A DNA stretch of 64,000 nucleotides, taken from NCBI GenBank assembly GCA_023205875.1, contig CP060754.1, positions 1,550,001 through 1,614,000 of the forward strand, given 5' to 3'. The notes below the pieces were generated by a model. The model saw only the letters and a list, made by a program, of their open reading frames with translations, made no database searches and was not told where the DNA came from. Position numbers and translations under genes: made by a program. Shown here one piece after another: positions 17,064 through 26,833 of this stretch; position 1 is the first letter of the stretch, and each line of letters begins with the position of its first letter. This DNA is from Chloropicon primus. Its lineage: Eukaryota > Chlorophyta > Chloropicophyceae > Chloropicales > Chloropicaceae.

Positions 17064-20000
17064 TCAAAAGTTGGGGAGGCTCTTCAAGTCAAGCAAGCCG
17101 CCGGGCAAGGAGGCGATGTCCCTCATCATCGCCAGCCTGTTCTTCCGCGTGTCGTCGTCCTCGTCCATCACGAAGACGGAGTTGAAAAAGTTCTCCAGAG
17201 GGGTCTCCAGAGTCCTCGAGGCCGCGACAAACGTCCCAACGCTCACGGCGGACCTGGATCCAGGCCTGGGCTTCATGGCGGCCTCCACCTCCTTGTAGGC
17301 CGCCCACAGCGCCTTCTCTTCCTCTTGCTGGAACAAGCTTTCGTCCACCGCCCAATCCCTGTCCACCTCCTTGCCTGAAACGATCTTGGTCGGCCTGGAG
17401 TAGGAGGCCAACACGCCTGCGAATTCATCCGTCTTGTACAGACCAGCCAGCTCCTTGACGGTGGCGACTGCGAGGTGAGGGTTCTCGTTCCTCTCGGCTA
17501 GAACGGACCTGATGACCTCCCTGGGCGCCCCGTCGTCCGCGAGTAGCTGCTCCAGGCGCCTCACGATGAACTCGTGCGCCTGGCCCCTCTGCTCGCCGGT
17601 GACTTGAATCGGCTGCTTCTCCGCCGCCGCGTCAATGGATTGCTTCAAGTCCAGATCGACCTCGTTCTGTATCAGCGTCTGGAGCATCCCATTCGCGATG
17701 CGCCTGAGGCCGTAAGGATCCGCAGTCGCAGTAGGAGCGCAGCCAGCGGCCACGAGGCCGACCAGGGAGTCCAACCTGTCCGCTACCGCCACGACAATTC
17801 CTGCTTCAGACTTCGGCACAACGTCCGACGCGTTCCTTGGGAGGACTGATTCGAAGACGGCTTCCGCGACGTCTATGGACAAGCCGTCCTTCAGGGCATA
17901 GTGCTTCCCCATCACCCCGGCGAGGGCCGTGAACTCCATCACGACCGAGGTGGCCAGGTCAGCCCTCGAGAGGTGGGAGGCCTGTAGCGCGACTTCCTTG
18001 GCATGGGTTAAATCCATCGCTTCCGCCAGCTCCCCCACCAACGCGTCCGTCCTGTCTGCCTTGTCCAGCATGGTCCCCAAATCCTTCTGGAACATGGTGC
18101 CCTCCAGCAGTGGCCTGAAATCAGAAAGTTTCTTCTCCATGTCGAGCTTGTAAAAGAAGTCGGCATCCTCAAACCTCGCCGTGAGCACGGACTCGTTTCC
18201 TGCCCGCACAGTGTCCTCGTCGATCTCCCCATTCGCGACCGTCACAAACACGGGGAGGAGCTGGCCAGTGTCCCCATCCTCCACGGGGAAGTACCTCTGA
18301 TGCTTCTTCATCACAGTGACAAGGATGTCCTTGGGCAGCTTGAGGAAGTCCTTGTCAAAACCCCCCAAGATGGCGCTCGGATACTCCACCAAGTTGGTCA
18401 CCTCCGGAAGAAGCCCTTCCTTCATGCTCTCAGGGATCTGCCCCCCGCTGGCCCTTGCAAGGTCCTGGGCGTCATCCCATATCACGCCCTGCCTCTCTTC
18501 CATGTCCACCATGATGCGGTTGCTCTCCATCTGCGCGAGGTAGCTCGCGGCAGTTGGAATGTCGATGGACGGGACGTGGAAGCCGTCCCTCAGGCCAAGA
18601 GAGATTCTGCCGCTTGTGACTCCGCAGGCCGTGAAGGGGACCACCTGGCCCCCGTGGATGGCAACAATCCACCTCAGGGGACGGGAGTAGGTGGCCTTGG
18701 AGTTCCATCTCATGCTCTTCTTGAATTGCAGCTTGCTGACGACGTCGGGCAGCCTCGACGAGAGCAACTCGCCGGTCACCTCACCCTGCACTTTCTTCGT
18801 CACCCAGCAGTATTCCGTGCCCTTCTTGTCCGCTTTCAGCTCTATGTCCTCAACGCTCACTCCGTTCTTCTTGCAGTAGCCAAGAACCGCCTTGGTTGGA
18901 TTGCCCTCGCCATCAAAGGCAATGCTCGCCGGAGGCCCTCTCACCTCCTCCACTCGGTCCTCCTGCTTGGGAGCCAGGTTCTTTACGACCACGAAGACTC
19001 TTCTTGGCGCCCCCGACGCCACAACCTCGTCGTAGTCCAAGTGCAAGTCGCCCAGGAGCTCGGTAAGCTTGGAGACGACCTGTTTGCTGACACTGGAGAT
19101 CTCGTCTGCGGGCAGCTCTTCTGACCCGAGCTCCAGCAGGAAGTCATCAGCTCCCAGCAGGGGCTCAAGCTTGCTCGAGCCGCGGGCCTCTTCTCCCTTC
19201 GTGTCAGCCAGCCTGGACTCGCCCAGAGGGAAGCCCAGCTCCTCCCTTCTTTCCACCCAAAGCTCCGCGCAATCCCTGGACAAGTTTCTCATCTGGGCAA
19301 ACAGCTTGGCTCTCTCCGTCACCCCGACGGCCCCCCTCGCGTCGAGGACGTTGAACGCGTGCGAGGCCTTGAGCAAGTTGTCGTACGCGGGGACCGGAAG
19401 ATTTTTCTCGATGAGCTCCTTCCCCTCCTTGTAGAAAAGCTGGAACCGCTGCCTGGTGTCCTCGATCGACGCCTCGTTGATGTTGTAGCAGCTCATCTCG
19501 TACTCGTTCTGAAGAAAGAGCTCTCCGTACGTCACATCAGCGTTGTATCTTATGTCCTTGAAGTGGCTCACGCCCTGAAGGGACATGAGAATCCTCTCCA
19601 AGCCGTACGTTATCTCGACGGACACCGGGTCGGTCTGCATGCCCCCCGCCTGCTGAAAGTACGTGAACTGGGTGATCTCCATTCCATCCAACCAGACCTC
19701 CCAGCCCAGCCCCCAAGAGCCCAACGCCGGGCTCTCCCAGTTGTCCTCCACGAAGCGGACGTCGTGCTTCTTCACGTCTATTCCGAGTGTCTCCAAGCTC
19801 CCCAGCAGCAGCTCTTGCGCGTTCCCTGGCTCGGGTTTCAAGATGACTTGGAACTGGGTGTGCCTCTGCACCCTGTTTGGATTGTCCCCGAAACGCGAGT
19901 CGTCCGGCCTGATGCTCGGCTCGGGATAGCACACGTGCCAAGGCTCCGGCCCGAGGACCCTCAAAAACGTGGCCGGGTTCATCGTTCCCGCGCCCACCTC

Positions 20001-20330
20001 CGTGCTGTGCGGCAACCAGACCACGCACTTGGTCTTCTCGCTCCAGTAGGTCTGCAGCCTCTGTATCGCTTGCTGGAACGTCGGGGCTGCCGCGGCCTTC
20101 CCCGCCGAGCTGCTCGCCTGGCTCAAGCCCCTCTCCTGCCTGATCGCCCTCATCCCCCAACAACCCAACGCCCTCCCCCTCTTCAGACCATCACCAGACC
20201 CTCCGCCGTGCAAGTGGTTGGGCTGCCTCCTCAAGCACTTGGCTGCCACCGACGCTGAAGTCGCCGCCTTGAGGCCACCCCTCGGTCCACTGAACCGTAT
20301 CGCGGGGAACCATGTCTTTCCCGTCAACAT
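17064..20330 (-). CDS. Organellar glycyl-tRNA synthetase, fused alpha-beta type (EDD1-like)
   Basis: Single exon, 1088 residues from ATG 20330. An Arg/Ala/Ser-rich region of about 80 residues fits a dual plastid/mitochondrial transit peptide. The bacterial-type alpha subunit follows (FQQAIQRLQTYWSEKTKCVV, STEVGAGTMNPATFLRVLG, NPNRVQRHTQFQVILKP). The beta subunit starts near residue 395 (DFLLELGSEELPADEI) and runs to the C-terminus with a DALR-like tail. Plants carry the same fusion as EDD1, which charges organellar tRNA-Gly. The cytosolic enzyme is an unrelated dimeric type. All segments appear complete. Confidence 0.96.
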   Translation of the reverse strand: MLTGKTWFPAIRFSGPRGGLKAATSASVAAKCLRRQPNHLHGGGSGDGLKRGRALGCWGMRAIRQERGLSQASSSAGKAAAAPTFQQAIQRLQTYWSEKTKCVVWLPHSTEVGAGTMNPATFLRVLGPEPWHVCYPEPSIRPDDSRFGDNPNRVQRHTQFQVILKPEPGNAQELLLGSLETLGIDVKKHDVRFVEDNWESPALGSWGLGWEVWLDGMEITQFTYFQQAGGMQTDPVSVEITYGLERILMSLQGVSHFKDIRYNADVTYGELFLQNEYEMSCYNINEASIEDTRQRFQLFYKEGKELIEKNLPVPAYDNLLKASHAFNVLDARGAVGVTERAKLFAQMRNLSRDCAELWVERREELGFPLGESRLADTKGEEARGSSKLEPLLGADDFLLELGSEELPADEISSVSKQVVSKLTELLGDLHLDYDEVVASGAPRRVFVVVKNLAPKQEDRVEEVRGPPASIAFDGEGNPTKAVLGYCKKNGVSVEDIELKADKKGTEYCWVTKKVQGEVTGELLSSRLPDVVSKLQFKKSMRWNSKATYSRPLRWIVAIHGGQVVPFTACGVTSGRISLGLRDGFHVPSIDIPTAASYLAQMESNRIMVDMEERQGVIWDDAQDLARASGGQIPESMKEGLLPEVTNLVEYPSAILGGFDKDFLKLPKDILVTVMKKHQRYFPVEDGDTGQLLPVFVTVANGEIDEDTVRAGNESVLTARFEDADFFYKLDMEKKLSDFRPLLEGTMFQKDLGTMLDKADRTDALVGELAEAMDLTHAKEVALQASHLSRADLATSVVMEFTALAGVMGKHYALKDGLSIDVAEAVFESVLPRNASDVVPKSEAGIVVAVADRLDSLVGLVAAGCAPTATADPYGLRRIANGMLQTLIQNEVDLDLKQSIDAAAEKQPIQVTGEQRGQAHEFIVRRLEQLLADDGAPREVIRSVLAERNENPHLAVATVKELAGLYKTDEFAGVLASYSRPTKIVSGKEVDRDWAVDESLFQQEEEKALWAAYKEVEAAMKPRPGSRSAVSVGTFVAASRTLETPLENFFNSVFVMDEDDDTRKNRLAMMRDIASLPGGLLDLKSLPNF

Positions 20331-23237: not shown

Positions 23238-24521
23238 TCACTCCCGACTCGCCATCTGCAAGACTGACTTTAAATCCAGGTAGTTGCACACGTGGTGCGT
23301 GTTCACGCCACTGGCCTGCAAAATTTCTTGGAGCCTCCCGGCAAAGTGATCTTTGCTTACGAGGACGACGCTCTTGACCCTGCTCCCTGGTGATCCAATA
23401 TCCTTGGCCATGACGCCGGCCTCAAAGACCATCAAAATGTCCGCGGCATCTCTGTCCATTGAATGGGCCCTCCTGTGATCAACAAAGTTGGGAAGGGGTC
23501 TCCCAGGGTTGTAGGCTTTCGAAGAATAGCCGCGGACCTCGCAAACTCCGTGGTCCCCTCTTTCGACCATGTACTCCTCCAAGGCTTCCAAGGTTTGGGG
23601 CATGTTGTCCAAATCGATCATGCAGAGCGTCCCACTCTCGGAGAGCGCAACACTCCTTTTCTCATTTTTTCTTTTCTTTCCTTCGTTTTCAATGACGGTG
23701 TTCTCGGTTGCCGCGCCGCCTGGCCCATACAACCACACTGACGCTGCCGCCTCTTGAGCCAGGCGTTTTTTGGGAAGCTGGCCTAAGCCTTCGGCCACCC
23801 TTCCTTGGAAGTTCACCGCATACCGGAACAAGGGCGCGTGCGATGGCCCCGAATGCTCGATCAAAGTGTACGCAGGCGGGGCCACGCCATCCTTCTGTGC
23901 CATCTCGTTCATCAGTTGAAGCGCCCCCATGGCGTCCACGCGATTGCTCTCCTCACCTCGGCCTCCCGCAGCGGAAGCTCTGACACCTCCCATTTTTTCG
24001 TCAACAACGGTAGCACCATCTGGCCCATACAACCACACTGACGCTGCCGCCTCTTGAGCCAGGCGTTTTTTGGGAAGCTGGCCTAAGCCTTCGGCCACCC
24101 TTCCTTGGAAGTTCACCGCATACCGGAACAAGGGCGCGTGCGATGGCCCCGAATGCTCGATCAAAGTGTACGCAGGCGGGGCCACGCCATCCTTCTGTGC
24201 CATCTCGTTCATCAGTTGAAGCGCCCCCATGGCGTCCACGCGATTGCTCTCCTCACCTCGGCCTCCCGCAGCGGAAGCTCTGACACCTCTCGAGTGCAAC
24301 GGTCTCGCTCTCGCCCGATGTTTGCCTCTTGCCCCCAAGTTGCCACGCCTCACCACACAGCACCTGGCTTCCCTCGCTGCCACGAGAGCTCCGTGCACGG
24401 CTCTTCCAGTGCCACGCCTTCCAAAATTCTGGAACACCCCCGGAGCAGCAGAGCAACTCTGCGTGAGGGGGAGACTGTAGCGACTGTGACCCTTTAAATC
24501 ATCCGCTACTCTCCCTGTCAT
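23238..24521 (-). CDS. Tandem dsRBD plus NYN/PIN-like domain protein (putative dsRNA-directed nuclease)
   Basis: Single exon, 427 residues from ATG 24521. The N-terminal 75 residues are Arg/Ala/Ser-rich and could be an organelle transit peptide. Two dsRNA-binding domains follow, about residues 85-165 and 185-265. Each has the fold order ALQLMNEMAQ, AYTLIEHSGP, HAPLFRYAVNFQG and LPKKRLAQEAAASVW, with the diagnostic KKxxAxxxAA. After a Lys-rich linker (GKKRKNEKR) comes a 130-residue NYN-like domain: CMIDLDNMPQ, SMDRDAADILMVFEAG and VVLVSKDHFAGRL hold the acidic residues expected in the PIN/NYN active site. The protein is likely an RNA nuclease or decoy aimed at dsRNA. I know of no characterised protein with this order. 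Confidence 0.75.
   Translation of the reverse strand: MTGRVADDLKGHSRYSLPLTQSCSAAPGVFQNFGRRGTGRAVHGALVAAREARCCVVRRGNLGARGKHRARARPLHSRGVRASAAGGRGEESNRVDAMGALQLMNEMAQKDGVAPPAYTLIEHSGPSHAPLFRYAVNFQGRVAEGLGQLPKKRLAQEAAASVWLYGPDGATVVDEKMGGVRASAAGGRGEESNRVDAMGALQLMNEMAQKDGVAPPAYTLIEHSGPSHAPLFRYAVNFQGRVAEGLGQLPKKRLAQEAAASVWLYGPGGAATENTVIENEGKKRKNEKRSVALSESGTLCMIDLDNMPQTLEALEEYMVERGDHGVCEVRGYSSKAYNPGRPLPNFVDHRRAHSMDRDAADILMVFEAGVMAKDIGSPGSRVKSVVLVSKDHFAGRLQEILQASGVNTHHVCNYLDLKSVLQMASRE
23720..23989 (-). repeat. 270 bp perfect direct repeat, copy A
   Basis: Identical base for base to 24020-24289, with an exact offset of 300 bp. It encodes the second dsRBD. Confidence 0.97.
24020..24289 (-). repeat. 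270 bp perfect direct repeat, copy B
   Basis: Identical to 23720-23989; encodes the first dsRBD. A 30 bp spacer separates the copies. Third codon positions are also identical. Confidence 0.97.
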
Positions 24522-25201: not shown

Positions 25202-26833
25202 ATGAACGTGAACCAAGTGAGTGTGGTGCCGGACGACAGCGTGGAGGCGATCGAGAACCGGAGTTTGCTCTACGATGACGAGTCCGAGGCGAAGAGGCGG
25301 AGCAGGACGAGGATGATGAAGTACGTGGCGGCAGGCTTGACCGTGGCGTCCGTGGTGCTTGTCATCTCGCTTGTGGTGATGTATCCGCACAAGGGAGGGG
25401 TGCCTGCGGACGAGATATGCAGCGCGGAGGTCGTCGAGTCCATACCTTTCAACACGACGGGTCTGTACTCCGGGGCCATGTCCACGTACAAGGCTTTCAT
25501 GACTCTGATAGACAACGCGCAGGAGAGCATAGACTTGACCGCGTTGTACTGGACGCTCGACTCGCCGGCGAGGAATGCGATGAAGAACTGCACGGACTAC
25601 TACTCGCAGAACTGTCCGGACGACGCCCACTTCAACCAGACCCAGCTGGAGGAGTTCGGCGTGTACCAGGGACACGAGGTGTACGAGGCCATAAAGAGAG
25701 CGGCGAGCAGGGGGATCAAGATCAGGATAGTGCAGAGCCCCGGACTCGGGAACGGCTTCGAGGAGCCGGAGACCATCCAGTCCCTCTCCAAGAAGGTTGA
25801 AATCCGAACGATGGACTTCTCAAAGTGGTACAGGAGTGGAATCATGCACGCCAAGGTCTGGGTGGTCGACGGGAAGCACGGGTACATCGGCAGCGCGAAC
25901 ATGGACTGGCGGTCTCTCACCCAAACCAGGGAGACGGGCGTCTTCATTCACTCGTGCGACCCGGTGATACGCGACATATCCAACATCTTTGAGTCCTTCT
26001 GGGAGTTTGCGAGGCTCGAGGGCCAAGCGTCCAAGATGACGACGAACATCATTGACCCGCACTTGCAGATCAACAGGATCGTTCCTTGCTGGTCACACCT
26101 CGTCGAGGAGGGCAAGAGGTGCAAGCACCCGTTTTCCATGTTCGAGACCCAGCCCATGCACGTGAAGATGAACGGGGTGGAGTCTAAAGTCAGGCTGAGC
26201 TTGAGCCCTCCAGAGATTTGTGGCAGGAACAGAATCTCTGATGGTAACATGCTGGTGGAAACGATAGAGTCTGCATCGGTGGGCGGGTTCGTTTACGTCT
26301 CCGTCATGGATTTTCAGCCCGTCACACGATTCCTTTGCAGGGAGGGAGCGAGTTGCCCTCCGTACGAGCAATTTTACTGGCCATCCTTGCTCCACGCGCT
26401 CCTCGGCGCCGCAACAGGCAAAGGAGCAGATGTCAGACTTCTGGTGTCTAGGTGGTGGTACGACAGCGAGGACGCCCAGGACGTCCTGCGAAAGTACCTC
26501 GAGTATTCCGACATCATCTGCAACAAGAACGCTTCGGAGTTCAAAGGCGCTTGCAAGGGATCCTTTGAAGTGAGGCTGGTTGAGATTCCAGGGTGGTTTT
26601 CTGTTCAAGGTCCGGACAGAGCGTACCCAGGGCACTCAAGAGTGAGTCACAGCAAGTTCATCGTTTCGGACAATCTCGTCAACATTGGGACTTCAAACAT
26701 GGAGTGGAGTTACTTTCATTCCACCGCAGGCGTGAGCTTCAACACCGATAACCAGGCCATGATCAACCAGGTCAAGAACATGTTTGAAGTGGCTTGGGAC
26801 CACCCGAACTACACGCACCCAATCTGGTGGTGA
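25202..26833 (+). CDS. Phospholipase D3/D4-like type II membrane protein
   Basis: Single exon, 543 residues from MNVNQVSVVP. A cytosolic tail of about 40 residues precedes one signal-anchor helix (YVAAGLTVASVVLVISLVVM). The lumenal part has two HKD motifs: HAKVWVVDGKHGYIGSANMD and HSKFIVSDNLVNIGTSNME. Spacing and the surrounding DLTALYWTL and WRSLTQTRETG match PLD3/PLD4, which in animals are lysosomal 5' exonucleases and lipid transphosphatidylases rather than classic phospholipases. Several NxT/NxS sites fit a glycosylated lumenal domain. The substrate in algae is unknown. Confidence 0.93.
   Translation: MNVNQVSVVPDDSVEAIENRSLLYDDESEAKRRSRTRMMKYVAAGLTVASVVLVISLVVMYPHKGGVPADEICSAEVVESIPFNTTGLYSGAMSTYKAFMTLIDNAQESIDLTALYWTLDSPARNAMKNCTDYYSQNCPDDAHFNQTQLEEFGVYQGHEVYEAIKRAASRGIKIRIVQSPGLGNGFEEPETIQSLSKKVEIRTMDFSKWYRSGIMHAKVWVVDGKHGYIGSANMDWRSLTQTRETGVFIHSCDPVIRDISNIFESFWEFARLEGQASKMTTNIIDPHLQINRIVPCWSHLVEEGKRCKHPFSMFETQPMHVKMNGVESKVRLSLSPPEICGRNRISDGNMLVETIESASVGGFVYVSVMDFQPVTRFLCREGASCPPYEQFYWPSLLHALLGAATGKGADVRLLVSRWWYDSEDAQDVLRKYLEYSDIICNKNASEFKGACKGSFEVRLVEIPGWFSVQGPDRAYPGHSRVSHSKFIVSDNLVNIGTSNMEWSYFHSTAGVSFNTDNQAMINQVKNMFEVAWDHPNYTHPIWW

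Follow-up and report, generated by a model that had tools for sequence, protein, structure and literature searches.

Double-stranded RNA-binding domains (dsRBDs) are known mostly from proteins in which the partner is RNase III, a helicase, a kinase or a deaminase, and the locus described here raises the question whether an algal gene that joins them to a NYN/PIN-like domain encodes a nuclease aimed at duplex RNA. The gene occupies positions 23238..24521 on the minus strand of a 64,000-nucleotide stretch of Chloropicon primus DNA (contig CP060754.1, positions 1,550,001 to 1,614,000), hereafter the window, and forms one complete open reading frame of 427 aa plus stop, running from the ATG at 24521 to the stop codon at 23240-23238. 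No intron is needed, because a transcript-derived C. primus protein (P0002, 327 aa; sources jgi, uniref and mmetsp) coincides with the window protein in both start and end. The window lies on contig 1 (1,855,637 bases) of the genome searched (17,584,162 bases, 20 contigs), where the single match of the whole 427-aa protein was itself. The neighbouring genes are ordinary and encode a glycyl-tRNA synthetase whose alpha and beta parts are fused in 1088 aa (17064-20330, minus strand) and, at 25202-26833 on the plus strand, a phospholipase D-like protein. The synthetase is of bacterial type and is probably an organelle enzyme. Contamination was considered and rejected, given the 1.86-Mb contig, these two flanking genes and the existence of a transcript-derived C. 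primus protein. Third-position G+C equals 0.642 (23241-24521) versus 0.817 and 0.79 in two neighbours, too few genes for a conclusion on foreign origin. The locus is best explained as a nuclear gene encoding a small endoribonuclease, and the evidence is considered below domain by domain.

The initial annotation described two canonical dsRBDs and treated their doubling as part of the architecture. The domain type stood the examination: PF00035 is matched in two stretches of the protein (53.9 bits in all, cut-off 23) corresponding to 24039..24215 and 23739..23915 on the minus strand, the alpha-beta-beta-beta-alpha fold of the family was found, and KKRLAQEAAA is present in both. The doubling did not, as the two copies are one DNA repeat, with 3 mismatches in 277 bp and an exact stretch of 270 bp (24020..24289 and 23720..23989, minus strand, by DNA comparison). 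An in-frame spacer of 30 nt (23990..24019, minus strand) lies between the copies, and their starts are 300 bp, or 100 codons, apart, so that the reading frame is kept; the remaining exact repeats of at least 40 nt within the window are 41-54 nt long. P0002 equals the window protein minus 100 residues, with V29M, and P0003, 50% identical to the window protein, likewise has one dsRBD, while P0010 has its own pair of dsRBDs, which share 67% identity across 75 columns. Since P0002 and P0003 are single and P0010 is separately doubled, we read one dsRBD as the usual state, dsRBD-NYN as the usual plan, and the dsRBD number as having risen at least twice; the apparent second dsRBD of C. primus looks like a recent duplication. 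PF00035 was matched at E<=10 in 8 of the 11 proteins of the family alignment, and P0005, P0006 and P0012, which begin after or inside the dsRBD, look cut short. The single dsRBD of P0002 and the identity of the copies over 270 bp would also agree with an assembly error concealing a real gene with one dsRBD. We hold this to be unlikely: the spacer had no second occurrence in the rest of the genome by the search made, and it counts against misassembly because it would not arise from a simple collapse or expansion; moreover, PMC6731263 and PMC12301720 describe C. primus genomes as heterozygous diploids, in which alleles or strains may naturally differ.

For the C-terminal domain (about residues 293-427; 23241..23645, minus strand), no match to Pfam was obtained even at E 10, and its assignment as NYN/PIN-like was therefore tested through predicted structure and relatives. 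NYN (PF01936) gave no match to the window domain and, of six relatives, appeared in one, at E 0.12, so that its curated cut-off was not reached, and a search of the C. primus genome with this family returned 0 matches. PIN7 (PF18475) did not match the window domain at all; P0015 and P0017 scored 23.9 and 26.3 bits against it, below the curated cut-off of 34, and in the PIN7 family search no control gave a match. By sequence, Pfam, NCBIfam, PHROGs and PDB yielded only dsRBD or weak unrelated matches, and P0017 used as a query against the genome had 0 matches, an uninformative result as the window gene itself was missed. A Pfam search of the protein found no RNase III catalytic domain, and RNase III-type catalysis was rejected on this ground. 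The domain type proposed in the initial annotation nevertheless appears to be right, as judged from the predicted structure and from the relatives P0015 and P0017.

The acidic residues that had been pointed out in IDLDN, MDRDAAD and VSKDH are indeed present, and alignment places motif I (IDLDN; D303, D305) at 23604..23618, motif II (MDRDAAD; D356, D358, D361) at 23439..23459 and motif III (VSKDHF; D391) at 23343..23360, all on the minus strand. The active-site alignment comprised ten rows, namely the window domain, P0003, P0004, P0006, P0010, P0011, P0015, P0017, P0018 and P0019; omitted were P0002 (same domain), P0005, P0007, P0008, P0009 and P0012 (near the rows kept), and P0013, P0014 and P0016, each lacking one motif. 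Every one of the ten rows has D at D303, D361 and D391 and either D or E at D305 and D358; D356 is not kept beyond the six algal-type rows, and at E367 the residues of P0015, P0017, P0018 and P0019 are D, Y, E and I, respectively. P0019 is a weak member, having no dsRBD and an E of 0.15 in the database search. All three motifs carry the conserved acidic residues that characterize the NYN/PIN-like superfamily. In the predicted model D303 stands at the end of strand 1, D361 at the start of the helix that follows strand 3, and D391 behind the strand after that; PIN/NYN enzymes carry metal ligands at such strand and helix positions. Strict conservation of this triad in rows down to 22-26% identity with the window domain suggests catalysis. 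The acidic patch of MARF1 consists of D358, D426, D427 and D452, and changes of D426 and D427 strongly reduced its activity (PMC6294520).

The relatives P0017 (214 aa) and P0018 (201 aa) consist of a dsRBD followed by a PIN7-like domain and resemble the algal proteins in domain order and in the RDAADILMV and DHF motifs, although they are only about 25% identical to them and lack the N-terminal extension. A single hhalign comparison with the algal family covered 178 columns with a probability of 98.4, whereas the database search had returned them only at E 0.042 and 0.064. Close family members were found in C. primus, C. mariensis and sources naming no organism only; as the database searches need shared exact words, absence of the family from other algae does not follow. 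The relatives P0004, P0008, P0009 and P0010 are mosaic: an identical NYN core goes with different dsRBDs, and proteins that otherwise do not differ end in alternative C-terminal segments, a pattern such as gene conversion between tandem paralogues might leave. In P0012, P0013 and P0014 the segment ...DILMVFE runs, at the same point in each, into low-complexity Arg/Glu-rich sequence, as if an unspliced intron split a C. mariensis-like form, the C. primus gene having no such intron.

Structural comparison pointed to counterparts in giant viruses. When the C-terminal domain alone, with no dsRBD, was searched with Foldseek against predicted viral structures, 6 matches at E<=0.001 were obtained, all from giant viruses, and 4 of the 6 bear the name "Double-stranded RNA binding motif-containing protein". 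A second query, a model of dsRBD, linker and NYN (residues 191-427; pLDDT 79.2, pTM 0.58), gave 33 viral matches at E<=0.001, and the top 8 all belong to giant viruses: Pithovirus LCDPAC01, LCPAC103 and LCPAC304, Orpheovirus, Marseillevirus LCMAC103 and LCMAC201, Indivirus and mimivirus Kroon. These 8 (E 3.6e-14 to 7.3e-8; 6 named as dsRNA-binding) cover both domains over 228-292 columns including gaps, in targets of 205-299 aa, with low query TM-scores (0.33-0.47) and high rmsd (11.5-23), values to be expected of two domains joined by a flexible linker. Later rows mostly span about 60-130 columns, a length that the dsRBD by itself would account for; among the exceptions, a LabA-like protein of Tetraselmis virus 1 (150 columns), Pithovirus LCPAC101 (176) and a Megaviridae NYN protein (141) fit the NYN part by names or columns, while VP9 of Gierle tick virus (223 columns) and a mosquito-virus coat protein (234) give long low-ranking alignments that have no ready explanation. 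The entry from Tetraselmis virus 1, which infects algae, is a stand-alone LabA-like/DUF88 protein (A0A2P0VNQ4, 162 aa) matching the NYN domain at E 1.2e-3 and 4.0e-4 in the two Foldseek queries. A0A481YND2 (Pithovirus LCDPAC01), A0A2I2L4K6 (Orpheovirus) and A0A0G2Y2F5 (mimivirus Kroon) are alike in having a dsRBD and then a NYN-like domain. The giant-virus dsRBD proteins, about 200-300 aa long, are 12-22% identical to the query, and their lengths leave little room for an N-terminal extension of the C. primus type. Seven scans of the viral_contigs collection, to which the following negative results apply, gave 104, 153, 98 and 44 pattern stretches with profiles A3, A7, A6 and A8, none confirmed by tblastn, and 15, 44 and 32 loci with DNA patterns, none of these 91 rising above the inclusion threshold in six-frame HMMER (best E 0.019). 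A profile scan of genome_contigs with A6 produced 66 pattern matches, none confirmed, and among phage records P0017 hit 4, none relevant (best E 4). Judged from predicted structures, the dsRBD-NYN plan appears common to giant viruses and C. primus, and the gene may have passed from viruses to Chloropicophyceae or the other way.

This bears on the supposed novelty of the architecture, which holds insofar as no description of a dsRBD-NYN family was found in the literature searched (the PIN superfamily classification might mention one) and fails insofar as the plan appears to be that of giant-virus proteins as well. Among systems already described, VPA0982 (2qip; DUF88/LK-nuclease) is bacterial, unlike the algal protein, and to our knowledge has no dsRBD. 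PIN7 (PF18475) is approached by P0015 and P0017 beneath the curated cut-off and not by the window protein. RNase III and Dicer are alike in joining a nuclease to a dsRBD but differ in that their catalytic domain is unrelated to that of the C. primus protein. The NYN (LK-nuclease) domain of MARF1/Limkain b1 (PDB 6fdl, 5yaa) is 16-19% identical; MARF1 differs in carrying RRM and LOTUS domains, no dsRBD being reported in the abstracts on it. Named in PMC2848206 are dsRBD fusions of OST-HTH proteins. NYN/PIN nucleases with RNA-binding domains are already known, and the dsRBD-NYN pairing would be a variant of these.

We consider it fairly probable that the protein is a small endoribonuclease whose NYN/PIN-like domain binds metal and cuts RNA while a flexibly linked dsRBD docks on a duplex. 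A divalent metal would be held probably by D303, D361 and D391, with D305 and D358 assisting; the dsRBD would bring the domain onto double-stranded or stem-rich RNA, and the metal-loaded domain would cut unpaired RNA beside the duplex, or nick it. PIN/NYN enzymes typically cut single strands. Because the MARF1 NYN domain degrades single-stranded RNA in vitro (PMC6294520), junction cutting seems likelier than Dicer-like dicing. The role may be antiviral, in RNA quality control or in organelle RNA processing.

That the C-terminal part is an unrelated Rossmann-like domain, its resemblance to NYN being general fold similarity, appears very improbable in the face of the invariant acidic motifs and of an independent sequence chain leading via P0015 and P0017 to PIN7/NYN. 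Some viral dsRBD proteins sequester dsRNA, and a NYN-like fold that does not cut, the protein acting through its dsRBD as such a sink, would suit the naming of the viral counterparts as dsRNA-binding only; the strict retention of D303, D361 and D391 in distant rows speaks against it and makes it an unlikely account. Considerably more weight, while still short of an even chance, belongs to an organelle enzyme, chloroplast or mitochondrial, that trims structured organelle transcripts and serves no dsRNA defence. The N-terminus had been noted as basic, and residues 1-95 (24237..24521, minus strand) are Arg-rich in composition, which makes a targeting peptide possible; P0003 has an Arg-rich extension too, but that of P0004 is only short, and acidic residues occupy positions 7-8 of the C. 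primus protein.

Six-frame search detected no Piwi domain in the C. primus genome (among 14 control genomes only M. jannaschii matched) and one RNase III domain, on contig 11, in a frame which, judged by eye, we take to resemble mini-RNase III; PF00035 was found in the window gene and a DHX29-like gene on contig 3 only, and six-frame searches can miss intron-split genes. Canonical RNA interference may be absent from the alga. Since no Piwi and one RNase III domain were found, the protein may be a main dsRNA-directed nuclease there. A bolder and rather doubtful extension is that Chloropicophyceae took, or gave, a giant-virus dsRBD-NYN RNase and use it as an Argonaute-free, single-protein cutter of dsRNA or viral RNA, with dsRBD copies rapidly gained and lost. 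If the nuclease reading is true, two domains, a dsRBD and an NYN nuclease, would suffice as a minimal means of aiming RNA cutting at duplexes, and giant-virus proteins so far named only "double-stranded RNA binding motif-containing" would receive a testable function. The occurrence of the pairing in several kinds of giant viruses and in common ocean picoalgae points to gene exchange and possibly to an arms race over dsRNA.
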